A DNA stretch of 64,000 bases from Stentor roeselii (lineage: Eukaryota; Ciliophora; Heterotrichea; Heterotrichida; Stentoridae), in NCBI GenBank assembly GCA_006503475.1, contig RSEH01000047.1, positions 123,576 through 187,575 on the forward strand, read 5' to 3'. How positions within the stretch are numbered: position 1 is the first letter of the stretch; every line of letters starts with the position of its first letter. Under the pieces are notes generated by a model, which was given only the letters and a program-made list of their open reading frames with translations, did no database searches and was not told the DNA's origin. Below are positions 9,169 to 63,888 of this stretch, in pieces. The translations under genes were made by a program, and so were the position numbers.

Positions 9169-10071
9169 CTAATTTATTATCTCAGAGGTATTACTGCTTG
9201 ATACAACTTGAAATACGCACTGGTTACTTTTAAATATCATCGAATCAAACATAAGAGTTTCTTCACTTAAGTAGAGCCAGGTACCATTCGTACTTGACTT
9301 TTCACCATCACCGTCCGTTAGAACCCAATGGTCTTGATTGAAGCAAATCAAAGCATGAACCTTAGAGAGCAAAGTATCATCAAACCTGACACCACAGCTG
9401 ATTCCTCTTCCCAAAGAAATTTCCTGATCATCAGCAAAGCAACAATCAAAAACTCTTTCTTCACCTGTGGCGTCCTTCATAAAAAGATGAGGATTTTTTC
9501 CGTCTTCTACATTCAAGGTCAAGAAAGTTGATCCAATATTTACCTTCATTCCATTCTTCACCTTTACCGGAAAGCTGATCCTCATGTAAACCCCAAAGTC
9601 TTTTCCCAGATCTCTAATAAAAAACCTGTCTTTTTCAATATTATAAACAATTTCAAAGTGTTTTCCTCGATGCTGTTCTTTATTATTCGCAGAATTATTG
9701 AGTGGGATCACGACATCATTCACAACTTTTCCAAATTCTTTCCTCTTGCTACCAAAGAAAACCTTTCCATCAGTTGAAGATCTTTTTGACCCTTGCAGGC
9801 CGAGATAAGAGATTTCAAATCGAGAGTCTTTAGCGAGTGGTCCTGAGTTGATCACTTTGATTATTAAGGAAGATGAAATGCGAAGAGACTTCAGAGCATT
9901 TACACGTTTTAAGGTTTCTTGGTACTCTGGAGAACTCTGGTAGCGGAACTGAGAGACTTCATTTAGAATCAGTCTTCCTGCTGGAGATGTTATTGTTCGA
10001 GGAGATATCACTGTCATCTCGTCTTGCATTGAGGAAGAGGCTTCACAACAACTTATTACGCCATTTCCCAT
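9169..10071 (-). CDS. Double-FHA protein with an acylation-type N-terminus
   Basis: A protein of 300 residues. The start MGNGVISCC offers Gly2 for N-myristoylation and Cys8/Cys9 for palmitoylation, suggesting a membrane tether. Two FHA-like folds follow. The first (about 115-195) has FEIVYN, FFIRDLGKDFGVYM and NIGSTFLTL. The second (about 215-280) has the full signature: ISLGRG, SKVHALI, and the loop SSTNGTWLYL. FHA domains bind phosphothreonine peptides, so the protein may recruit a phosphorylated partner to a membrane. No catalytic domain is seen. The stop lies 14 bp before the start of the TTC39-like gene on the same strand. Confidence 0.8.
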   Translation of the reverse strand: MGNGVISCCEASSSMQDEMTVISPRTITSPAGRLILNEVSQFRYQSSPEYQETLKRVNALKSLRISSSLIIKVINSGPLAKDSRFEISYLGLQGSKRSSTDGKVFFGSKRKEFGKVVNDVVIPLNNSANNKEQHRGKHFEIVYNIEKDRFFIRDLGKDFGVYMRISFPVKVKNGMKVNIGSTFLTLNVEDGKNPHLFMKDATGEERVFDCCFADDQEISLGRGISCGVRFDDTLLSKVHALICFNQDHWVLTDGDGEKSSTNGTWLYLSEETLMFDSMIFKSNQCVFQVVSSSNTSEIIN

Positions 10072-13030: not shown

Positions 13031-15084
13031 ATGGAAGAACTGCTTCAAAGTCTGGTAGAATGGGTATTTTTAAATAGTTTCACAAGTTTTCTAAAAGATC
13101 CCTCGAAGAACTTCTAGAATTAAGTGACGGTAAACTTTTGTACTACATGCTGCACCATCTGTAATCACTACACAGCGACGAGGAGTTTTTTTCAGAAGAC
13201 AAGATAAACTTATCAAAGCCTTGTGAGTCCTACGACGACAAATTAGCAAACCTGAAGATTCTTTACAAGTATCTCTACCTTTACTACTTGGATCACATGG
13301 AAATAGTTTTCCAGCTAAGCGAAACAGACCTTTTAAACATTGCAGAGTACTCAGATCCCGACAGTCTTTTAAAATTGATTCAAACAACAGTAGCTGTTTT
13401 TCTTCCTGATAAAGAAAAACTTGTTTCTCTTATTTCAAGACTTCGACAATCAAGCCAGACCTGTCTCTACGAACTTATAAAAAATATCAACAATTTACCT
13501 AGAATCACGAATAACTACGACAACCTTGATAAAGCTTATTCAATTCTTATTAAAAATTACAAAAATCTTCTGGCTATCAATGAAAACCTCGCTCAAGATC
13601 TGGAAATGAGCAAAATGACTGAAGAAGCTTGGGAAAAAAGACAAGAATTGTTTAAACAACCTTCCAGAGGGTCTTATGGATTGACTCAAATGAATAGTAT
13701 TGAACGTAACTATGAAAATATCACGTTATCGAGGAAAATTGAAGAACTTCAAAGGAATTTTGAACTGGAAACTGAAAAAATTAACCAGGAACTTGATGAA
13801 GCTTATGATAAATGCAGGGAACTTGGAAAAGTCAAGGAACAAAATTCTATTTTAAAGGAAAATGTTGAAAGACTCAAGGATTTTAAAAGAGAATGTGAGG
13901 ATCTTACTAAGGAAATTGAATGTGTTGACTCTTTACTGCAGAAAGAAATTTCGAGAAGGAAAAAGTTTAAAAAAATGATTACAATTCTTGAAAATCAAGT
14001 CACTGAAAAAGAAGATTTAATTGTTGAGAAAAATTTAAAGATTAATAAATTGAAGGAAGATATCGAAAAGCGCCCAGTAGAAAAAAGTGGAACCAAAGCC
14101 TTCAACCGAATAAAATCCAGGATCCAAAGCAAGTACTCAAAAGAATACCTTTCAGATTCCGAGATCCCCGAGGAAGAAGAAATAGTTCCATTCGAAAACT
14201 CCTTAGAAGCCGACATAGTAGCAGACCAAAACCAAACAATAAACCGTCTTCTAGTAGGAGGAGCAATCGCGATAGGTTTGAAAGACCAGTTAGAAAAGAT
14301 CCAAAAAGAAAACCTGTTAAACTCCCAAAAGTTCCAAGAACAAAAAGAAACCATTAAAAATCTGAGATTCAAAAGTGCGAAACTTTACAGTCTAAACAAT
14401 ATCCTGAAATCAAATCAAGAAAGTAAACAAGTTCAAATCACAAGACTTCATCAGTCAATCAAAGAACACGAAGAGAGGCTGAGTGAAATGCAGCAACAAA
14501 ATGATAAACTTCAAAGAAAAGTAATCAAACTTGAAGTTGAAAGTTTGAATATGAAAAATAATGAAATTGAAATGATTAGAATTTATGAATTGAAGGGAGA
14601 CATGCATCGACAACAGATGGCTTTTTTAGAGGAAAAGAGAAAATTAGAGGAAAAAGTCAGTATTAAAGATGATGAAATCTTTGAACTTAAGCAGAAAGTT
14701 TCGAGTTTAGAAGAGAGGTATTTGAAAAGTGAGACTTCTTTGAAAACTTATAATAAAAAATTGGAGGATATGACTGGATTGCTTTCTCATTATACTGTTA
14801 TGTTTGAGAAACAGAAAAAGTATCATGATAGGGGAATGGACATGCTTGATAAAGAAATCAATTCTAAGGAACTGGAGTTTATGAAAAAAATCAAGGGAAA
14901 ACATAATGAAAGCAATATTGAAATACCTGATTCACCGAGTTTGGATGATGTTCAAAATGTTAATAAAACTTTGAAAAGAGAGGTCAAGGTTTTAAGAAGT
15001 CAGATGTATGAGGTTGGTATTGATTATATGAATTTGATTGAATTATTCAGAAAGTTTATTAGAGAAGAATTGATAATAGTTTAG
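13031..15084 (+). CDS. HOOK-domain coiled-coil protein, dynein-adaptor-like (3 exons)
   Basis: Exons 13031-13063, 13078-13160 and 13176-15084. Joined, the N-terminus reads EELLQSLVEW, FHKF, SLEELLELSDGKLLYYML, then a helix around YLYLYYLDHMEIVFQ and AEYSDPDSLLKLIQTTVAVF. This tracks animal HOOK proteins: the ESLLTW start, the calponin-homology-like NGVVMAQVL, and the HSDAAELGRMLQLILGCAV segment. The remaining 500 residues are coiled coil. HOOK proteins link cargo to dynein-dynactin and activate motility; p150 dynactin is encoded elsewhere in this window. The second intron (15 nt) is regular; the first fits only at 14 nt. The longest single-exon frame begins at 13288 and misses the HOOK core. 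Confidence 0.8.
13064..13077 (+). other. Intron 1 of the HOOK gene, 14 nt
   Basis: GTATTTTTAAATAG. Removing exactly these 14 nt joins the codon for the conserved Trp to TTT and restores the downstream HOOK frame. A 15-16 nt intron with GT-AG ends is not available here. A missing T in the T5 run would make it a regular 15-nt intron. Confidence 0.65.
13161..13175 (+). other. Intron 2 of the HOOK gene, 15 nt
   Basis: GTAATCACTACACAG. It interrupts a codon after its second base. Removal eliminates an in-frame TAA and continues the HOOK domain as HHLDEEFF. Confidence 0.85.
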
Positions 15085-28300: not shown

Positions 28301-29308
28301 GCAGACATCTCAAAAGAAATCCAAAACCTTTCCTCAGAGATGCTGTGCGCCACTCCAAACAATTTAGAAAAATCCGGTGAAGGACAGCACAAATTCACGA
28401 TTCGACCAAGCAGCAACTCTTTGTTAACTCTTCAAATGCATGAGTTCCTCGGACTGCTCATGGGATGCTGTGTTCGGACTGGAACAAGGCTCACTCTTGA
28501 CCTTCCTTCTTTCTTCTGGAAGCCCCTCGTTGGCATGAACTTGCGCTTTGATGACTTGAAAGAAATCGATGAACAGACCTGCAAATTTTTAATCTTCATG
28601 GAATCCGCCTTGCCTCAGATTTTTGAAGAAAGTTTCGAGTTTTTCACGTCAAAACTCTCAGATTCAACTGTTGTGGAACTTGTTGATGGTGGCAGAAATT
28701 TCCCTGTTACTTTTGAGAATAAAAAGAAATATATTAGGGATGTTCTTAATGTTAGATTTCAAGAAGCTCGTAAACAAATCAAGGCGCTTAGGGAAGGACT
28801 TGCGAAAGTTGTTCCTATTGGATTGCTTAACTTGATCACTTGGAAACAACTTGAAGATTGGGTCTGTGGCAAGCCTGCTGTCGACATTAAACTTCTGAAA
28901 AGACATACAAAGTACAGTGGCGGTCTCACTGAAACTAGCCAAAGAGTCCTTTGGTTCTGGGAAATACTTGAAAATGAATTCAATGAAGAAGAACTCTCTA
29001 AGTTCATAAAGTTCTCCTGGGGACAAGAAAGACTTCCCAGTAATGAAGAAGAGTACCTCAGAAATCACACTCGCCTCATGATTAAACCTAGTATGAACAA
29101 CGAGCATAAAGATGGAGCCCTTCCTAGAGCTGACACCTGTTTCTTCAACCTTGAACTTCCTGATTACTCAAGCAAAGACATTTTAAGAACCAAGTTAAAA
29201 TACGCCTTTCTCACTGACTGTGAAAGTATGAATGCAGATAACCCACTGAGTGAACAACAAGAAGCAGGAATGTACCGAGAAGACCATTATTCAGGTGAAG
29301 AAGAGTAA
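16349..29308 (+). CDS. Giant HECT-type E3 ubiquitin ligase, 4319 aa
   Basis: A single uninterrupted frame of nearly 13 kb. In order: an N-terminal region with a propeller-like stretch (about 290-410: TTDGDYIYLLVTTAGG, FKIGTGEGGTLTGKVYLY); a Lys/Glu/Pro-rich linker (about 410-800) containing heptad repeats; a UBA-type ubiquitin-binding helix bundle (about 812-855); a beta-sandwich-like segment with DCLWLSSPDNS and WGFKLRI (about 1530-1630); a RanBP2 zinc finger WTCDRCTFVN plus CVMCDNPKP (about 3622-3650); and a C-terminal HECT domain (about 3914-4294) with the catalytic Cys4264 in DTCFFNLELPDY. HECT ligases carry ubiquitin as a thioester before transfer. The architecture resembles giant animal HERC/HECTD4-class ligases; exact orthology is uncertain. 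An acidic tail of about 50 residues follows the catalytic Cys, longer than usual. Confidence 0.85.
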   Translation: MSVLENGMEENLTHNERNVSDDLDWAGLASFRFLNSQRPCEGWSDDFGWSLLDKYFGSLNYKAENYSNARSESLKDWEKHVQTLAIQSGLESKQYYSSLLNFYSELSNAGQGIRNNLGSKPVDDEFTDRLKETAAAPWIISSLPGIDPNSWPFSLEGLVEKLQSFPPFYLWMEPFDLDNSFIEKVSIFIQKNSKRLDLVSLSLKVLLLLGYLLGNGTKIAAAYTEVWKFCSSHEAPENFIEDLSSVVAPHVSMIKKVIDQEKQVHYAKPGSLSEKFSAAQNSKYQKNQSNWNTSLTTDGDYIYLLVTTAGGGKFKIGTGEGGTLTGKVYLYKAVDKADEAVWTYCKGKLYMKSGFRETGIVSIICPNTFKDEGLLQLHCPDLFGNPTKQALNKYYPLLSDGESLYVVGVKLEKIPQKEEEKKAEVKTEEKKTETEKQPEPAKVSEDQPAPAKDEEKQAIIEEAKDPAILKDENSKEEVKIEPNENPEGSEKKEEEKKVEEPGILAEKIERIEKMIEEDKELLEEVKALDDHLKQNLEEKVELKEDKNEEIKKEEKIEEKPQEEPLNVIQVVSLEIVHIEQPGKIEEKPQEKEPDIIPAPLSPKNLAEHPISPKSGDSPKGVDDKIVPAEIADPSGDKDVPVEVKEVPVEGKEVPVEGKEVPVEGKEVPVEAKEVLVEAKEAPIEAKEAQVPVEGEVPAEAKDLNPPSNPSEPNKPDPSQPQPENPEEKKSEPLKEPSKVEEIKAPSEKRIPAKKVLEKKVENKKRPEKKEPPKKEEKKEEKKKDDPNLCQFILYKFDVSHLHSDLRPQQKYSDQAKELYEGFSCYFSLNECQKSLAINNEDIEMAATWLIENGENERGKKVVTCYQTTLLCEAAITSYSMGKLQKPEIALKSDTILSLELVSRGEWTMNKKCITLHFLNPDGASATARIFSIDPNDVKPLFTDSHILTNTLNQVADVKQEGDFWSKFFKERQTHVYRGSHLCNRDCDKIFTVETVACFDIEHKRFITTALNSNLGIQFSVFSDQLSLDQRICCKEYLLGNEKYQEFVAHGLKVVQDCEFQKFHLPWKWMRWTSVYNKAIFRYTKLLKSSIDEEKTKAIQKTIEKLQARARKMKIFEEKTLLNELKIVPTSILKNKNKKEESVVYLIKDKYKQEGLKQSNERPQLAVDNSKESILSLESTEVSVKVLLNMASDRRLLVPSLHLLFLWASHSRPSLSPSLLTALEGLLAREVHSECSETRELSWKVVVVAWESLCGSKEKEQFWFSRILDNSKLFFPVMRRKDSFIYNVRNSPEPLGYFNLYDDCKDPLVMWFLKHVHSNHLAIPERAYSTLVRENVKVMIDKNSEHDLSTACAVSFVNSDNFTPIVKRRKLGHLLEDNWELIEELLVSSISDPSSNFTHCLFEIVMFLAKDCQLEGRNPVDRLTNLLNNLLNKILSTLQDRATTLYSKWFSNLRRLLIQTIIYSTKDLKNNSKDLLQILSKVKKLFQIDNKNLLQYLNNSFAAGADMVQEKLIETSHPYQRGKQQINETLSFPGAIAICIEIDPRSQTDNAHDCLWLSSPDNSAGFTNFNGEVFGSSFKLSGKVVISHQLVLQGDSIHIEFNAAGQHREESNSSKWGFKLRIKPYYGEPMLLLADNANSSLLSKISLRLGGENLLIQWISTYNWLCFCISERVRKELQESPQHSLELLNWSIFEGGLRDLQVATFLKKDGNDWVFINPTFPPKLTLNIENLKKSLSSVHSETFSVIQSGKHNLNLLLKDIRKEHKHPQLYVSEKMRPGFKAEDKNFWDFLEGILLYTMIYHTHEGKDFDELLAISGNSEKLESNYFKEQLRAYGKKLNEVLTWMIKQVQSSKDRQHLLEDVIEMKSKILSTKKPPPIEEKKVSKLLVPVLKSNVKRMALSKSKGKKTTKPIKSSNIPPFKPELDDKDKEEIFKVFNDRVAGNSSLLKDLCSAFKVEYEEGSKPISELFQKILTTNEDSFPNPYQTQGNLLFTRLLILLHFHPYIEKQKLLPEDPEEECEVPVLKRASTQENAENLQKILEMRKWVDSYRKWKEWKDPKKDVDEKSPLNDLLNFITTPKVPEDLIATSLLQASVAAKRVSDLQLLSSFTSIVHLTPAVRLSLGLLPRPSIYFSIASAGKTLKSLLNEQASKILEVLCDNLFILVNSLKAGYDVQKAQPVTVKKESKLLSSQFQFTDIYINHQLRLIVSLLNDIYSLIKTENFSEEMISCLNHEQMLLTLVEIYLFCNTLPSCKLVMTVTSGVKLIFFTFLKTSQNSCSFEFKEKIQQETIFVVTQFLFNELSKPENPSRMEKLLTLTFEVVISTGLHKRDEKVSLAKHLFSIVLNSSNHTIIRIASRILKILSKDLKPSEISTVFLKQVLEKLGKYATSHINGFGNNGNTSGKYVVVLHAPTTEEDVDYLFPVLRNWEEICPSNKQVKVDDEIIEETVSLEEFYANEMFGGIPVEFEGLKNFSAYNRFFIAEAGRGRKRGGIKNLKPASKKAASKKPSSVTTSLSKLEKAFDEQNKNFEEIKETDTEEEKERKIKEKEFITKVKSTLKESQMIASNLINKGLAQMGESMSLDQAIVLSLLLKQYQSGMVIDSKTKLPLLPVNPFARVQGDAPTTETVKSKKPVQVSICEAAVFSKLDYLMETGPSLPTLRSSEKLMGVISGNYSRTFLNREVQSGASIALCIQELLELLCSLSEIPAWLDEFAGKIPEFIEKSEEGDNSGLGAVIAYGGWEDLFRPGSSVLVESNNVKSKEIIVQGGDLSGLKSALLLVEDEKNYMLKTFQLTELIRNKLKLIHKFQVNHGIIAKRYLKIGQDNEWNSVFKRQLLLIACQIDWNSWINPSESDVKPFLDQLFEISQNAPCDKDLNFFERRLVQIWEKMSEKDSPIFINPSEESKSLPSDGFLLSVEDSEASVTSFTLPASSFLTFNPQLSTSSSDITNFKMLRYWEKHIITRIQDYVRSSFRPIEMDYFFAQLRQPLRIGDVHKASEVANVLCDYRLPSGLVLPDQKHDWSALVIDEVQIGRACLVKISEKLIQQVDSAAIRRMFAQGIVQFSVVIRAIDSRAACLLVEFHDSERLEVNLVWLPISSVYPAEVHVPSVTQMKDFQSLYSELNQKVISIYAKKILLQGMSAVQKGLLNTVDVMKMAVTDELQSNRIDGWRLCRPDYYSLNPNHSQTSLIYYIHTPEESQQVTPKLNWIESSIIPSREAELVEWCVISWHKLRDDLSESARTLDIVEVTNALMGQQLPLPSTPENIISESHSDRKYFPLHYQDSNFCGLVLCFKQDAFLCSNSKLQFFADPEGAELIYEVKAGTQGKGSLAPIVFQSGKVWCTHFTFIDIKCSQYNTNFSGPSILNCRVYGIPESWTLTTWLTEVLSSTLSQKPSEDNISLVHSLQDSICEFLEGSRAPFPIKQVLFRLMTRIGRRLRYMNSLFPVGMGVSEDWLSGLIQEMNLLRDAEFTGTGTLYSSYIQDGVELINTLLLPWDVQKSSNINNLFIETPSWIRNHFHSLIFLNFFRHEGSLTENLVQEAEELLNHDQFETVLLVDSAKSEDLEKILECLLKHKLKLISSERDIVFLNGKAVIFADGLNIEYYQETNFPEEEKQEEKEEENKEEEIWTCDRCTFVNSVDCPVCVMCDNPKPIIEVKPKVPQIDIRDIENKLISRKKEAIEEFCKALATELNTSARKIDLNTDIELLNQVIVTRFIDGDKKLHPQLNKNFEAVWMELKALLADDMHKAKEVFIEELQKNAIEFIKKLEKAGIDLWLCKTLGCVNKTLTRKQLEALTDFVESRLCKQTRASLYLPPSSIRAPIEDVTSVNHAMHFFPSTLSGLTTQHLRYNWALIRVFNRYIFDSIGLCNLTQHSLLPRDSCTLSLASALSELRALVVFPVKIEVEQQVFALTSVMREGAPKVILERLKSTDSHKKMTNFIKAFEQLQDVNPALLRPPKPQGADPFISFEVVFKGELVVGEAGPYRQFFADISKEIQNLSSEMLCATPNNLEKSGEGQHKFTIRPSSNSLLTLQMHEFLGLLMGCCVRTGTRLTLDLPSFFWKPLVGMNLRFDDLKEIDEQTCKFLIFMESALPQIFEESFEFFTSKLSDSTVVELVDGGRNFPVTFENKKKYIRDVLNVRFQEARKQIKALREGLAKVVPIGLLNLITWKQLEDWVCGKPAVDIKLLKRHTKYSGGLTETSQRVLWFWEILENEFNEEELSKFIKFSWGQERLPSNEEEYLRNHTRLMIKPSMNNEHKDGALPRADTCFFNLELPDYSSKDILRTKLKYAFLTDCESMNADNPLSEQQEAGMYREDHYSGEEE
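18263..18409 (+). repeat. Tandem 21-bp repeat within the HECT gene linker
   Basis: Seven successive 21-bp units encode variants of VPVEGKE, starting at 18263, 18284, 18305, 18326, 18347, 18368 and 18389. Units 2 and 4 are identical and alternate with unit 3 at the same silent positions (GTC GAG GGT AAG against GTT GAG GGT AAA), which suggests that 42-bp pairs were duplicated recently. The last units have drifted to VLVEAKE and APIEAKE. Confidence 0.85.
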
Positions 29309-29325
29309 GTAACAGCTTAATAAAT

Positions 29326-30464: not shown

Positions 30465-31575
30465 TTATCCAAATTTCATAAAGAAAAACTGCTGTCTCAG
30501 AGCCTGTCTCGCTTTAATCCTTCTTTTCGGGTCGAACTCGAGGAGTTCATAAATCAAATGAATAAAATGCTCATACCGCCTACGAATCAAGTCCTAACTA
30601 TCTTCTACCTCCAAATAAGGCAGTTTATTCACAATCTTCTCAGTAGACTCACTAAACGCATAAGGAAAATCAAGTCGATAATCCCTATCAAAATACTTCT
30701 GAAACCTTCTACTCGCATTTTTTCCCATCCAAGTCGGAAACCTTCCAAGAACTTTCCTCATCATCGCAAGATGTTCCGAGTCCTTATGAGTAGGAAAAAG
30801 CAATTCTCCAGTATAAAGTTCAACTAAAATGCATCCCAAAGACCACAAATCAGAAGAACTGTCCCATCCTAATTCTACCTGTGCACTACCTAGAATGACC
30901 TCAGGGGCGCGGTACTGCCGAGTGTTGATAACGCTCGAATGATAATCACCATCAAAAGTTGACCCTCCAAAGTCAATAACCCTTATCTCACAATTGACGG
31001 GGTAATTCGCATGCTTAGCAATCACCTACTTTTTCCTCGTCCCACTTCATCTCGGGATGAACTAGTAAAATGTTCTCGGGCTTTAAATCAGTGTGGGTTA
31101 AGCCCAAAGTGTGCATAAAGTCGAGAGTTATTAGAAGTTGCTTCGCGAATTCCTGAACTTGAGTCATGCGGAAGCCTGAATGAGGATCACCTTTAAATTG
31201 GTTGTCTTTTATTACGTCGAATAGACTTTTACCGAGTTTTTCAAAGACCAGGCAGTAGTTGTCGCCTAAGGGAAAGTGCTCGAATAACTTGACTATGTGG
31301 GACTTGTGTTCAGGGTCAGAACTGTTGAGTTTTTCGATGATTTCTGCTTCGATTTTGGCAGCTTCGACGTATCTTTCAACTGCACGAATCACTTTTATGG
31401 CTTTTTCAGTGCCTTCCAAGTCACTTACCTTTAAGACACGTCCGAAAGTCCCGTCGCCTAGGAAGCCAGTGATGGTGTATTTTTCATGCAAAACTTGCCC
31501 GACTGTCCATTCGAAGTGTCCATTATCGCCTTGTCTCGAGGCTGTTTCACTTGACGAGCTCCTGCTTCTCGGCAT
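30465..31575 (-). CDS. LAMMER/CLK-type dual-specificity kinase (3 exons)
   Basis: Exons 31575-31030, 31013-30609 and 30593-30465, giving 359 residues. A short SR-like start (MPRSRSSSSE) precedes a kinase domain with LGDGTFGRVLK, AIKVIRA, THTDLKPENIL, VIDFGGSTFDG and STRxYRAPEVILG-like NTRQYRAPEVILG. Near the end EHLAMMRKVLG carries the LAMMER motif that names the family. The C-terminal lobe is completed only after removing two introns (16 and 15 nt). CLK kinases phosphorylate SR splicing factors. The ATG at 31575 is 4 bp from the start codon of the divergent NOP53 gene. Confidence 0.93.
30594..30608 (-). other. Intron 2 of the CLK gene, 15 nt
   Basis: GTAGAAGATAGTTAG on the minus strand. Removal erases an in-frame TAG and adds the final 42 residues of the C-lobe (DLIRRRYEHF to FFFMKFG). 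Confidence 0.9.
31014..31029 (-). other. Intron 1 of the CLK gene, 16 nt
   Basis: GTAGGTGATTGCTAAG on the minus strand. The frame change requires a length of 16. Removal joins WDEEK to HANYPVN within the region between the catalytic loop and the DFG motif. Confidence 0.9.
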
Positions 31576-58145: not shown

Positions 58146-59345
58146 ATGGCTTTCAGAGGCGGTGGTGGTCGTAGATTTAACAACCGTTCAAATAACAGCG
58201 GAAGAGGCGGCAACAACACCGGAGGTATGCCAGGCCGACAAGGTGGATTCTCGCTTCCCAGCAACCAGAACCCATCAAGCCAAGGTTCCTTCCCGAACCG
58301 CCGAGCTCCCCGTGCAGAGTTTAACAAGCCAAGGATTTGCATGTCTTTCCAGCAAGGTTCCTGCGTGAACAACCCTTGCCGAGACCAGCACCAATACTCA
58401 TACAACAACGAAATAGGCCGACTTCAACAAGTATCAATTGGAGGGCCAGTCTTCGCTTCAAACCTGGTCAACCCTTCTCAAGTCTGCGTCGCTCTTCAAG
58501 GCCGTATCGCGATATTCGACTTAAAATCAGGGCAAAAGGTTTTCGAGGTCCAGGTCCAAGGCCGGACTAAAGCACTCGAGTATTCAGAAGACTTCGGCCA
58601 AGGCTTTATCTTCTTCGCAGGAGACACTTCGAACCGTCAGTTGTTAGGCGGGATAAGCAATTCAGGAGGTTTAGGACATTTCTCAGAATGTCATGCCTCA
58701 GGGTTGAACTGTTTGAAAGTGAGAAGAAATCTTATATTTGCTGGAAGTGATGATGGGAAGGTAAGTGTCTGGTACTTTGCACAAGGATTTGTTTTTGGAT
58801 GCTTTTTAGAAGCGGATCCTAATGTTCAGGCACAGGTTTTATGTTTAGAAGTGATGAATAGTGTTGTTTTTGCAGGACTTGCAAATGGCAGGATTGTTGG
58901 CTGGGAATACAACTTTGAAAAAAATACCAGTCAGTTTATGGGAAGTCTTAATTTGGGACATAATGGAAGAGTTACTTCTTTGCAGACTTTAGCTGATCAG
59001 TACTTGTTCAGTGGAGGGGATGACGGGATGATTAACTGTTGGGATAGTCAGAACCAGTACCAGGGTGGATGTCTTTTAAATGCTACGAAGGCGAAACCTG
59101 TCCAGATCTCTTCGATGCTGATCTGCGAAGGACAGACTGGAACTTTTTTAATTCTGGGGACTGGAAACGGGAAGATACTTTGGTACAATCTGCAGGGAAG
59201 TGAAGCGAAGTTCATGCAACCTCTCAGCTATCATCGGAAAAGTGTCACTGGTCTGTTGTTACTTGACCTTGAAGGCCATCACGGGTTTATTTCGACGTCG
59301 ATTGATGGGTTAATTCACGTTAGTAATTGGAATATTTCTTATTGA
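58146..59345 (+). CDS. CCCH zinc-finger plus WD40 protein with RGG-type start
   Basis: A protein of 399 residues. Residues 1-60 are Gly/Arg/Asn-rich (MAFRGGGGRRFNNRSNN), an RNA-binding-type disordered tail. One CCCH finger follows at about 65-83 (ICMSFQQGSCVNNPCRDQH, C-x7-C-x4-C-x3-H). The rest is a WD40 propeller with GSDDGKVSVWYF, GLANGRIVGWEY, GGDDGMINCWDS and SIDGLIHVSNW. The order CCCH then WD40 recalls plant ZFWD proteins. An RNA-binding or mRNA-regulating role is likely. The stop is TGA; the next gene starts 10 bp later. Confidence 0.8.
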   Translation: MAFRGGGGRRFNNRSNNSGRGGNNTGGMPGRQGGFSLPSNQNPSSQGSFPNRRAPRAEFNKPRICMSFQQGSCVNNPCRDQHQYSYNNEIGRLQQVSIGGPVFASNLVNPSQVCVALQGRIAIFDLKSGQKVFEVQVQGRTKALEYSEDFGQGFIFFAGDTSNRQLLGGISNSGGLGHFSECHASGLNCLKVRRNLIFAGSDDGKVSVWYFAQGFVFGCFLEADPNVQAQVLCLEVMNSVVFAGLANGRIVGWEYNFEKNTSQFMGSLNLGHNGRVTSLQTLADQYLFSGGDDGMINCWDSQNQYQGGCLLNATKAKPVQISSMLICEGQTGTFLILGTGNGKILWYNLQGSEAKFMQPLSYHRKSVTGLLLLDLEGHHGFISTSIDGLIHVSNWNISY

Positions 59346-59355
59346 ATGTAGTTTA

Positions 59356-60242
59356 ATGGAGAAGTTCCAAACCGCTGATGATGAAGAAGAGTATATTTAC
59401 ATTGATAAAGACGGTAACACCCTGGTCATCATTGACTTCAAACTTTTTGCTGATCCTTTCGAGTCCCCGATCCCAATGCGAATCAACTCAAAGTAAAAGT
59501 TAAAAAGGAATAGTCTCACTTATCTTCGAGTACAGGTCTTAGAAACACTTTCCAAGTATCAAGTCTTCTTTGACCTCGCACAACTGGATGTCGCAAGTTT
59601 AACCCTCAATAAAACCCTTCTTCCTGAAGTAATCGTAAATAGACTGGGTACGCTGGAGACCTTCTCAAGTCTGGAGACTCTCTTTTTTGCTCCCTTAACT
59701 CAAATGACTTGTGGCTTGAGTTTAAAGTTGAATGCAACGTCGTTCCTTTTGTCATGTTCTTTGAAGCGAAATTCGAAAAACTTGATACTGTGAAAAAGTT
59801 GAAAGAAACGATTTCAGATCTCGCGCATCAAGTCTTTGCTTGCAAGAACTATTCGATTAACTTTGAGGAAAATGAAGTAAAAGTCAAGAAAATTGAAATT
59901 TCTGCTCCTTTGAATAAAGAGCTGGTCTCAAGTCTTGCACAAGGACAGGACTTTGATGTGGTCAAGGTCGACAATGAAGAATGTGTTGGAGATGTTTTTG
60001 ATTTTGAGAAAAGATGTGTTTTGGTTAAGTTGAAGAAAAAGAAGTGGTTTAATGATAAAAGTATCACGGCGAATAGCTATTTGGTCTCGGATAGTTTTGT
60101 TCAGGTCACCTCTGATGTGGTTGTTAGGGCGCTTCGTGTTGAACCTTGCATTCATTATAATTATAAGGCGGCCACTGGCGCCCAGCTTAGTATTGATGAG
60201 GTCAATACTCAGAGAAATTGTCATAGTTGTAAGGTGTTTTAA
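59356..60242 (+). CDS. Three-exon gene, unknown protein with CaaX-like end
   Basis: Exons 59356-59492, 59508-59628 and 59643-60242, giving 285 residues. The joined protein has no family that I recognise. It starts MEKFQTADDEEEYIYIDKDG, is acidic, then contains a mixed region (GYAGDLLKSGDSLFCSL, WLEFKVECNVVPFVMFF, LKETISDLAHQVFA) and ends NCHSCKVF. The last four residues, C-K-V-F, fit a geranylgeranyl-type CaaX box with a palmitoylatable Cys three residues before. The second intron fits only at 14 nt. An uninterrupted frame covers only 59709-60242 and starts at a TTG, so a naive annotation would miss the N-terminal third. Confidence 0.65.
59493..59507 (+). other. Intron 1 of the CaaX gene, 15 nt
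   Basis: GTAAAAGTTAAAAAG. It splits a codon after its second base. Removal deletes an in-frame TAA and continues as SKNSLTYLRVQVLETL. Confidence 0.8.
59629..59642 (+). other. Intron 2 of the CaaX gene, 14 nt
   Basis: GTAATCGTAAATAG. The frames of exons 2 and 3 differ so that the intron length must leave remainder 2 when divided by 3. No GT-AG pair of 15-17 nt exists nearby. Removal gives NKTLLPE joined to TGYAGDLLK without a stop. Confidence 0.7.
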
Positions 60243-60252
60243 TGGATTATTA

Positions 60253-61496
60253 TTATTTCGTAACTAGTTGAATGTAGAAATAATGGCACTGGTAACAGTA
60301 GAGAAGTGGGTGGATCGCTGCGCGGCTTTTACAGCAGATACAAGTGCTGAAATGAAGAATAAATCCTCCTGAATAGGCGATAAAATTATTTAGTAGGTAG
60401 GTGTATTCTGGTTTTTGTTGATTTATGTAATTGATTAGATATGGGTTTAAGTGGTAATCGTTTATAGAATAATTTGCGGCACTACAGCTTTTGTTGTAGC
60501 ATCCGTAGACATGGAGTTTTCTTAGCCAGATAAATTTCAAGTTATTTATTTTTTTGATAAATTTTGTAAATTTTTTCATTATATATTCGTAGATACAATA
60601 GTTGCAATAGACGTGTTGGTTGCAAATAAGATAGGAAAAACATTCTTGGTTATGGATTTGGCAGATTGATGATAATTTTGAATGGTTTACAGTAATGATA
60701 GGGTTTTTTTGGATTAATTTTTCTGGTGAGATTGTTTGGTTTATCGGTGGACTGCGTCCGTAATTATTTGATATTCTAGTACTTTCAATTTATTATTATT
60801 TTTTATGTTCGAGTTAGAGGATTGAAAACTAGTAAAATTATTTTTCAATTGTTCATTTTTTCCTTCTGAACTTTTTATTTGCGTAATTCGTTTAGAATTT
60901 TGAAAAATAGTAATATTATTTTTCAATTGTTCATTTTTTCCTTCTGAACTTTTTTTTTCAATAATTGGTTTAGTATTTGTACTTTGTTCATTTTTTAACA
61001 ATTGATCATGTTTTTGATGGTAAAAATCTTGACGGATTGTAGGATTGTATTTTACAACATCATTTCGACTCTCTGTTCTACATAGATTGCAGGAAAGCTT
61101 TAAAGTATTAGAATTCTTACAATTATTGCAAATATTATGATTTTTATGAAGGTGTATCATATTGTTTTTCTCACAATATCTTCTGCAAGAAATGCAAAAG
61201 TATTGAATGGAATTTAAGCAAATTTTACATTCTATCTTTTTGGCATTATATGATTTTTGTAAACATTCAAAGCAGTAAGCATGATTTTGACATAACGCAA
61301 CTTCACCATCTCGATGTAATGAAGAAAATGTGTAGCAAGATATGTTTTTTGATTTTTTCAAAAGGAATTTGTTATAGCAGGTATGGCAATATTCAGAGTT
61401 CTGTATTTTCGGCATATCTTGACAGCTGCTGCATACAGTATGGCAGCCATGTCGAAGAAAATCAGTTGTTGTTTGACAGAAGATGCATCTACCCAT
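60253..61496 (-). pseudogene. Frameshifted paralogue of the Cys/His-rich zinc protein
   Basis: Two overlapping frames on the minus strand. The first (61496-60741) encodes 251 residues of Cys/His-rich sequence (CIFCQTTTDFLRHG, CSSCQDMPK, CHTCYNKFLL, CFECLQKS, CISCRRYCEKN). The second (upstream part before the ATG at 60579, ending 60253) encodes CQIHNQECFSYLICNQHVYC and YGCYNKSC. Together they match the intact paralogue at 62632-63837 along its full length. The frame changes between about 60740 and 60800, and no GT-AG intron fits. It may be a pseudogene, a true recoding event, or an assembly error. It contains a 78-bp tandem duplication. Confidence 0.6.
60837..60954. repeat. 78-bp tandem duplication in the frameshifted paralogue
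   Basis: A 40-nt block (ATTATTTTTCAATTGTTCAT, continuing to CTGAACTTTTT) is identical at 60837-60876 and 60915-60954. The period of 78 bp corresponds to 26 residues and yields two copies of SSEGKNEQLKNN in the protein. It keeps frame. Confidence 0.85.
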
Positions 61497-62631
61497 TAAT
61501 CTATTAATATCTATAATTTAACTTTATATTCTAATCTAGCTACTAAGGTAAGAATTTTAATAAATTTTTTAAAGATTTTTCCTTCAGGATGAAGGCTTAT
61601 TAAACATTATTAATCGTGAAGGTACACACTCTAGTGTTTTTCATAATTATTACCCAGGATATCTAAAAACTTAAAAAATATCTGAATTTTTTTAGATTTT
61701 CTTATCTTTGACTACTCTTTCCTACAGAAATAAGTTTGAAATCCTATTCGGCTTATTCTAAGAGAAGAATATATTTATAATCCTTTCGATAAGGTCTTTT
61801 TATAAGAGCTTAGCTGATTAATGGATTCGAATCATAATGTTTGATGAAACCATTGCTGCCTAGTATTTGAAGAAGCACCTTAGCTCACGATGATACTAAT
61901 AAACTTCTATATTCAAACAATTGAGTCTGAATCAGTAATAGTTATTGAAATTTTCAAGTTAAAATGAACTTTTATAATGCAGATGGAGATCTTCAGGTAC
62001 AAAATATAATTTATTTGAAAGAAGATTATTAAAATACAGAATTAACTATTTAATTATTATAATCATGATAATAAGGCTTGAATACTTCTATTATATATAT
62101 GATAACCAAAGAATTTTAATAGATATGAAAATAATAAGTATTTTGTATATAGATGTCTATTAAAAAACGATCTAGGTAAGTTAGTCTACTTCTTTGTATT
62201 TTATATTTGTTTTTCTGTTTTAAGAGTTAAGGATGTCTGAGTGAGCTGATTTTAGATTTTTCAAGCTTTAAGATGTGAAGGATGGCTATTGTGGTTGATT
62301 ATATCAAGATTATCCAATTCACACTTGATAAACTTAATAATTTTGCTTATCAATAATCAACAATAGTTCAATATACTATATCAGTATAGCCTTTATTTTT
62401 AGTTAATAGTTTGAGTTGGATGTAGAAATAAATATTTTTATAACATATATTTTCTTATAATTATCTAAGATTTGTCAAGCATCATTAAATATTATTTAAT
62501 AAATCAATCAATTCAAAACCTTATGTAGTTAGTTCATAATTCAATTATTAAGTTCGCAGTTATGTTCATTTATTTAAAAATCTAATTAGGCCCATGATAT
62601 ACTAAAATTAATATTATTATTCCTTAATTTC
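61497..62631. other. AT-rich intergenic region, 1135 bp
   Basis: Between the two zinc-protein paralogues. Markedly AT-rich compared with the rest of the window, with no open frame worth noting. The sequence near 61823-61835 contains TTCGAAT, but no tRNA arms pair around it. Nothing further identified. Confidence 0.45.
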
Positions 62632-63837
62632 CTAATAGGTGGTGATGCTATTAAGATGACACTGGCATGAATAACATATATTTTCAGGATAAATTGCTGA
62701 TTTAATTTTGCAGTTACCGCAAGAGTTGAATACAAAATTAAAACCTTCTGAATATGGGATGAAGTAATTTAATAAATAGTGATTTTGATAATCATATTCA
62801 GAAATTTGAGTTCTTAAATATGGTAAGAACTGATAAAATTGGCATGAATAGTTCGCTTTGTTGCATCCTTGAGAATAACAACCGTACTTATGAAATTTAT
62901 TGAGCCATTCTAAATTGTTAGCGTTGATATTTTTTATAAACTGGTTAAATTTTTTTATAAGGTAATAAAATATACAATCGTAGCAATAGGGATGGTCTTT
63001 GCATGCCATCAATGAATAGTACTGCTGATGAATAGGACAGTAACAATTATTCATTTCAGGTTGACGGAATTGATTGATATTATATGTATTCACCATGGTT
63101 GTATTAGTCAAAGTGTTTGAAACTACTTCTGGAGATTTTTGGCTATTTATTTTATTATGATTTTGATTGGATTCGCATTTTTTTTTTTCTTTTATATCTA
63201 GTGTCTTGAAATTTCCTTTTTTATTTCCGCGTTCAACACTATTTTTGGTATGGTTATTGATATTTGAATTACTGTTCATTTTAGTTGATATTTGACTTAA
63301 GTTAATTGATTTAGATTCTGAGCTTTGTTTATTATTTAACAATTTATCATGTGTTTGATAGTAAAAATTTAGACGCATTTGAGGATTGTAATTTACAGTG
63401 TCATCTTGAATCTTCGTTCTACAATTAACGCAGGAAAGCTTTGAAGTATTAGAATTCTTACAATTATTGCAAATATTATGATTTAAATGAAGACGTATCA
63501 TATTGTTTTTCTCACAATATCTTCTGCAAGAAATGCAGAAGTATTGAACGGAATTCAAGCAAAATTCACATTTTATGCTTTTGGCATTCTTTGGTTTTTG
63601 GAAGCATTCAAAACAGTAAGCATGATTTTGACACAATGCCAGATCAACATTTTGATGTAATGAAGAAAATTTGCAGACAGATATACTATTTGGATTGTTC
63701 AAAAGTAAGTTGTTATAGCATGTATGGCAATATTCAGATTTCTGTATTTTTGGCTTAGCTTGGCATGAGCTGCATACATAATGGTAGCCATGTCGAAGCA
63801 TATCAGTTTCTTTTAGACAGAAGATGCATTTACCCAT
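62632..63837 (-). CDS. Cys/His-rich multi-zinc-finger protein, 401 aa
   Basis: The intact member of a two-gene family in this window. The N-terminal half (1-155) holds many CxxC and CxxH pairs: CIFCLKETDMLRHG, CSSCQAKPK, CHTCYNN, CQNHAYCFECFQ, CEFCLNS, CISCRRYC, CNNCKNS and CVNCRTK. A low-complexity Asn/Ser/Lys linker (about 165-255) follows. The C-terminal half adds CPIHQQYYSLMACKDHPYC, YGCYSQGC, CGNCKIKS and CYSCQC. The spacing recalls stacked RING/B-box-like zinc ribbons, but I cannot assign a family. A nucleic-acid-binding or ubiquitin-related role is a guess. Codon use is more AT-rich than elsewhere. The start at 63837 is MGKCIFC. Confidence 0.75.
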   Translation of the reverse strand: MGKCIFCLKETDMLRHGYHYVCSSCQAKPKIQKSEYCHTCYNNLLLNNPNSISVCKFSSLHQNVDLALCQNHAYCFECFQKPKNAKSIKCEFCLNSVQYFCISCRRYCEKNNMIRLHLNHNICNNCKNSNTSKLSCVNCRTKIQDDTVNYNPQMRLNFYYQTHDKLLNNKQSSESKSINLSQISTKMNSNSNINNHTKNSVERGNKKGNFKTLDIKEKKKCESNQNHNKINSQKSPEVVSNTLTNTTMVNTYNINQFRQPEMNNCYCPIHQQYYSLMACKDHPYCYDCIFYYLIKKFNQFIKNINANNLEWLNKFHKYGCYSQGCNKANYSCQFYQFLPYLRTQISEYDYQNHYLLNYFIPYSEGFNFVFNSCGNCKIKSAIYPENICYSCQCHLNSITTY

Positions 63838-63888
63838 TTTATTAATTATCTAGATTAAGATTAAACAATTGTCTATATTTAATCATAT

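Follow-up and report, generated by a model that had tools for sequence, protein, structure and literature searches.

A probable 14 nt spliceosomal intron in a genome of mostly 15 nt introns

Introduction

The introns of heterotrich ciliates are tiny, approximately 95 % being 15 bp long and the rest 16 bp (PMC11441545). Of the 8806 introns annotated in Stentor coeruleus, 92.81 % are 15 nucleotides (nt) and 7.19 % are 16 nt long, and the putative branch A lies at position 10 of the former and at position 11 of the latter, with five bases remaining in each (PMC9505925). A 15 nt intron thus has a loop of 10 nt that must already fit the active site, and a steric clash has been discussed (PMC9505925); the minimum intron length for the spliceosome is an open structural question. 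Here we describe an insert of 14 nt, GTAATCGTAAATAG, in a gene at the right-hand part of a 64 kb stretch of DNA (the window), which is the end of contig C344 in an assembly of 44.4 Mb and 522 contigs. A preliminary description made from the window had proposed an intron shorter than the usual range, which agrees with the 15–16 nt given for heterotrichs (PMC9505925, PMC11441545). No report of spliceosomal introns of 14 nt was found in a literature search confined to open-licence PubMed Central.

The standard genetic code applies, the open reading frames (ORFs) of at least 300 codons on C344 ending 30 times with TAG, 27 times with TAA and six times with TGA; together with introns that are mostly of 15 nt this fits Stentor. 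As judged from sequence, we put at about 0.8 the probability that GTAATCGTAAATAG is a real GT–AG spliceosomal intron of 14 nt, derived from an ancestral 15 nt intron and spliced by the ordinary spliceosome.

Results

Structure of the target gene

The gene carrying the insert (the target gene, forward strand) consists of three exons. Exon 1 (59356–59492, ATG at 59356–59358), which was placed by alignment with paralogues, ends in phase 2 and is followed by a 15 nt intron, GTAAAAGTTAAAAAG (59493–59507), with A at position 10. This first intron had been drawn differently in the preliminary description and was corrected to 15 nt from the introns of that length found at the same site in all five paralogues (L004, L005, L006, L007 and L008). 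A 21 nt reading, extending to 59513, was rejected; it keeps the frame, but loses residues that are present in the paralogues. Exon 2 (59508–59628) ends with LLPE in phase 0 and, after the 14 nt insert (59629–59642), exon 3 (59643–60242) runs from TGYAGDLL to the C-terminus CKVF and the stop codon TAA at 60240–60242. The frame of exon 3 is closed upstream by the TAG at 59640–59642 and has no further stop between 59643 and the TAA.

Re-reading of the sequence and frames gave the coordinates, letters and exon frames of the insert as first reported, and likewise no long base run within it, the longest being AAA. GTAATCGTAAATAG starts with GT and ends with AG, as a major-type spliceosomal intron does, whilst its length in the assembly lies outside the 15 or 16 nt of heterotrich tiny introns. 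Within the assembly this exact 14-mer is found at a single place.

The predicted protein has 285 residues, and the exons flanking the insert are conserved through a cysteine-rich C-terminus in which C282 is invariant. The cysteine-rich tails of the target protein and its five paralogues, for example CKVF, CEIF, CLLF and CFIF, resemble prenylation (CaaX) boxes. For the target gene, searches of Pfam and PDB gave no match of weight; a match to polyubiquitin was weak (E 0.47) and is not evidence. The stop codon of the upstream WD40-repeat gene (58149–59345) lies only 10 bases from the start of the target gene (window 59343–59358). By eye, two cysteine-rich stretches on the minus strand, at 61150–61517 and 63500–63840, are similar and look like a local duplication.

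Paralogues fix the junction

The insert had been described as the only nearby GT–AG segment able to restore the frame, which proved not to be so. Eleven GT..AG segments of 9–40 nt and of length 2 mod 3 were tested between 59497 and 59800, and six of them (14, 35, 11, 29, 17 and 11 nt) keep an open frame as far as the last stop codon; the frame alone is therefore insufficient to settle the junction. The frame of exon 2 itself continues to 59793.

A whole-genome protein search with the target identified the five paralogues (30, 30, 23, 21 and 20 % identity to the window protein); an additional match was very weak. Once the 14 nt are taken out, the target and all five paralogues align without gaps through LLPE/TGYAGDLLKSGDSLF (the slash marks the junction). 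Three of the paralogues, L006, L007 and L008, possess 15 nt introns (GTAAAAACCATTCAG, GTACTATTTACCTAG and GTAAATTTTAAATAG, respectively) at exactly this junction and in phase 0, and the other two, L004 and L005, are uninterrupted there (LPE/SG and LPK/SG). Other GT–AG junctions near 59629 were rejected, as they would replace residues that match the paralogues. Since the paralogues align gap-free and three of them have a 15 nt intron at this place, the position of the junction is settled and the assembly has an insert of 14 nt, which upholds the junction and length of the preliminary description.

A second probable 14 nt intron in the window

The gene finder called another intron of 14 nt in a HOOK-domain gene on the forward strand. 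Exon 1 (13031–13063) encodes MEELLQSLVEW and is followed by the 14 nt intron GTATTTTTAAATAG (13064–13077; A at position 9), exon 2 (13078–13160), a 15 nt intron GTAATCACTACACAG (13161–13175) and exon 3 (13176–15084, to the stop codon). Removal of GTATTTTTAAATAG joins MEELLQSLVEW to FHKFS and gives a HOOK_N match with E 4.6e-10, compared with 1.7e-7 for the competing 23 nt junction. HOOK1 and HOOK3 of PDB align across the 14 nt junction.

Further putative 14 nt introns in the genome

Three 14 nt motifs, GTAATNNNAAATAG, GTAATYYYANNTAG and GTAAGNYYANNTAG, gave 37, 27 and 36 matches, respectively, with six matches common to the first two and the target counted among the 37. From these, 61 candidate windows (20 + 20 + 20 + 1) were examined, and five were accepted as introns, so that the HOOK intron, which came from the gene finder, is the sixth beyond the target. 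None of the 20 GTAATNNNAAATAG windows examined besides the target was judged to be an intron, whilst two were accepted from all 27 matches of GTAATYYYANNTAG and three from the 20 examined matches of GTAAGNYYANNTAG. A 14 nt motif in which the branch A was shifted to position 10 gave 50 matches (raw count).

Acceptance was based on homology across the junction in two cases, on an adjoining ankyrin exon in one and on coding statistics alone in two. In a Kelch gene (L055, C36:85112–85125) the Pfam match spans the junction with 70.4 bits, and in L070 (C329:15633–15646) an intronless paralogue, L094, is colinear across the junction with 25 % identity. In L087 (C235:23897–23910) an in-frame TAG directly precedes the ankyrin-encoding exon. 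The two cases accepted on coding statistics, L075 (C59:39545–39558) and L079 (C85:169455–169468), reach 5.2 and 4.5 in the two-sided coding score, above all 2,841 control segments, which were of other lengths and of which none reached 4.

In all seven 14 nt introns, as in those of 15 nt, the sixth base counted back from the 3′ end is an A; the donor-to-branch distance is therefore one shorter at 14 nt. The search pattern imposed A at position 9 in five of the seven; the target and the HOOK intron are independent of it, but the gene finder that called the latter favoured that A. The same preference biased the set of listed 15 nt introns, in which A is at position 10 in 25 of 25. In GTAATCGTAAATAG the A at position 9 (59637), the putative branch nucleotide, is followed by the 5 nt tail AATAG.

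An estimate of frequency was obtained by setting the two accepted among 27 GTAATYYYANNTAG matches against approximately 226 excess 15 nt matches, and the three among 20 examined GTAAGNYYANNTAG matches against approximately 499. Introns of 14 nt appear to make up about 0.6–1 % of introns in these two productive motif classes. The corresponding 16 nt motif, GTAAGNNNYYANNTAG, had 33 matches (195 in controls), a count no higher than the 14 nt level, compared with 535 for the 15 nt form, and 16 nt introns may be less common in this genome than in S. coeruleus.

Other short calls were made in the window. The only 16 nt intron called in the gene-finder survey, GTAGGTGATTGCTAAG (31014–31029, minus strand), does not have the usual A as the sixth base from its end. 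The same holds for a 14 nt segment called under loose penalties, GTAATACCTCTGAG (9181–9194, minus strand), which may merely join two neighbouring genes. The 11 nt GTAAGTAACAG (29305–29315, plus strand) ends an open frame of 4,322 codons and scores well as a junction with the frame that follows; two adjacent genes are the simpler reading.

Could a base be missing from the assembly?

The strongest of the other explanations is an error of assembly or consensus, the true intron having 15 nt with one base absent from the contig. It would agree with the 15–16 nt known for heterotrich introns (PMC9505925, PMC11441545) and with the 15 nt of all three paralogue introns at the target junction. The rate of such losses was estimated from a gene-finder survey of 296,450 bases, 248,278 of them called coding, which gave 17 introns of 15 nt, three of 14 nt, of which one is doubtful, and single introns of 11, 16 and 21 nt. 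Two exonic frame breaks were called in the 248,278 coding bases; they lie at C344:1103, 1.1 kb from a contig end, and in a piece of C264 near 132136. Across the 212,610 bases of long ORFs there was no break at any of 5,208 runs of at least four equal bases. A search of a kinase family for frame breaks was not used, as just the best 135 of 1346 candidates were scored and broken frames could not appear among them.

The break rate corresponds to approximately 1.2e-4 losses per 15 nt intron, far below the estimated share of 14 nt introns, and predicts 0.095 one-base losses among the 788 genome-wide 15 nt motif matches (0.34 at the upper 95 % limit). Five accepted 14 nt introns have a P of 6e-8 against this prediction, or 3e-5 at the upper limit; restricting the count to the two cases with homology across the junction, L055 and L070, raises P to 0.004 (0.047 at that limit). 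The target insert is one of four among the seven 14 nt introns that are without a run of more than three bases, and a second 14 nt intron is present within the same window. The loss of one base from the assembly at 59629–59642 is accordingly unlikely.

Points against a 14 nt class

Several observations weigh against the reading of GTAATCGTAAATAG and its counterparts as 14 nt introns. Motif counts at 14 nt did not exceed those of backward controls (37/61, 27/120 and 36/191), whereas 15 nt counts clearly did (134/63, 253/68 and 535/160); because the 14 nt counts alone show no excess, windows were inspected individually. A loose frame test was passed by three of 60 candidate windows and by 156 of 2,841 controls; as approximately 5 % of the controls pass, it carries no weight. 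With motif-matched controls (0 of 58, vs 3 of 60) the difference was not significant (P 0.24), and L070 and L087 were among those that failed the loose test. In the strictest frame test none of six 14 nt segments passed; the target was among the failures, because the frame of exon 2 has no early stop past the junction. A gene finder without a splice-motif bonus, which called few introns overall and none of 14 nt, did not call the target intron; it was replaced by a version with a length-independent motif bonus, which did.

Individual cases are also open to other readings. An 11 nt alternative for L055 scores 68.7 bits, just 1.7 bits worse, L079 has a 17 nt alternative, and nearly all of the ankyrin match of L087 falls within the right exon. 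The coding score by itself puts the HOOK intron, L055 and L070 within the control range, and these rest on homology. Homopolymer miscalls are possible in the HOOK intron, which has a run of five T, and in L055 and L070, each with a run of four. The number of exonic frame breaks, on which the loss rate depends, varied with the penalties from one to three across penalties and sequence sets.

Discussion

The most likely source of GTAATCGTAAATAG would be a 15 nt intron of the kind that three paralogues retain at this site. One base would have been lost between the 5′ splice site and the branch point; both the direction and the age of such a change are presumptive. Branching at the A at position 9 would form a lariat whose loop has about 9 nt, compared with 10 in a 15 nt intron, the usual 5 nt tail to the 3′ splice site would be kept, and the intron would be removed from the RNA as its 15 nt neighbours are. 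The simplest model is thus the ordinary spliceosome working with a loop that is one base smaller. The genome encodes a complete Prp8 frame (C315:3457–10344, minus strand; 2,296 uninterrupted codons) with seven PRP8 domain families, in keeping with a conserved spliceosome.

Alternatively, the 14 nt form could be real DNA that is poorly spliced or unspliced, representing a recent loss-of-function or low-expression allele. Introns of 14 nt are rare, and the surveys of heterotrichs cited here give just 15 and 16 (PMC11441545), which would suit this explanation; the remaining frame of the target is nevertheless intact over 285 codons and includes the C-terminus of the family, and six other genes, among them those of the conserved HOOK and Kelch proteins, appear to carry the 14 nt length, making such an allele improbable. 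Ribosomal frameshifting or bypassing, or the removal of an unexcised germline segment (internal eliminated sequence, IES), is the least credible explanation: IESs occur in ciliates, Euplotes is reported to use frameshifts (PMC10235951) and a single frame change would suffice, but the paralogues have GT–AG introns at the same site and, by inspection, no pair of the TA dinucleotides in the 14-mer (59630, 59636 and 59640) bounds a length of 2 mod 3.

GTAATCGTAAATAG probably belongs to a standing minor class of 14 nt spliceosomal introns that makes up approximately 1 % of introns, has two members in this 64 kb window and would be the shortest known. In such a class the 5 nt tail from branch to acceptor would be fixed and a donor-to-branch loop of 9 nt tolerated, with 15 nt no hard floor. 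If this is true, it is the loop rather than the tail that can shrink further, and gene models that are missed or truncated where annotation pipelines permit only 15–16 nt would be explained.

The insert shares with the 15–16 nt introns of S. coeruleus its GT–AG ends, GTA start, A/T-rich composition, 5 nt tail and setting in a gene with few introns (PMC9505925). It differs in its length of 14 nt and the A at position 9, only 15 and 16 nt being given for the 8806 introns of that species (PMC9505925). Blepharisma stoltei has introns of the same size class in a heterotrich setting (PMC9942806, PMC11441545), a setting that is assumed for the present genome; its introns are predominantly of 15 and 16 bp (PMC9942806), compared with 14 nt here, and it reads UGA as tryptophan, which this genome does not. 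Loxodes magnus likewise has very short ciliate introns, mapped in that case by RNA sequencing, but their mode is 17 bp and lengths below 16 bp are negligible (PMC11441545).
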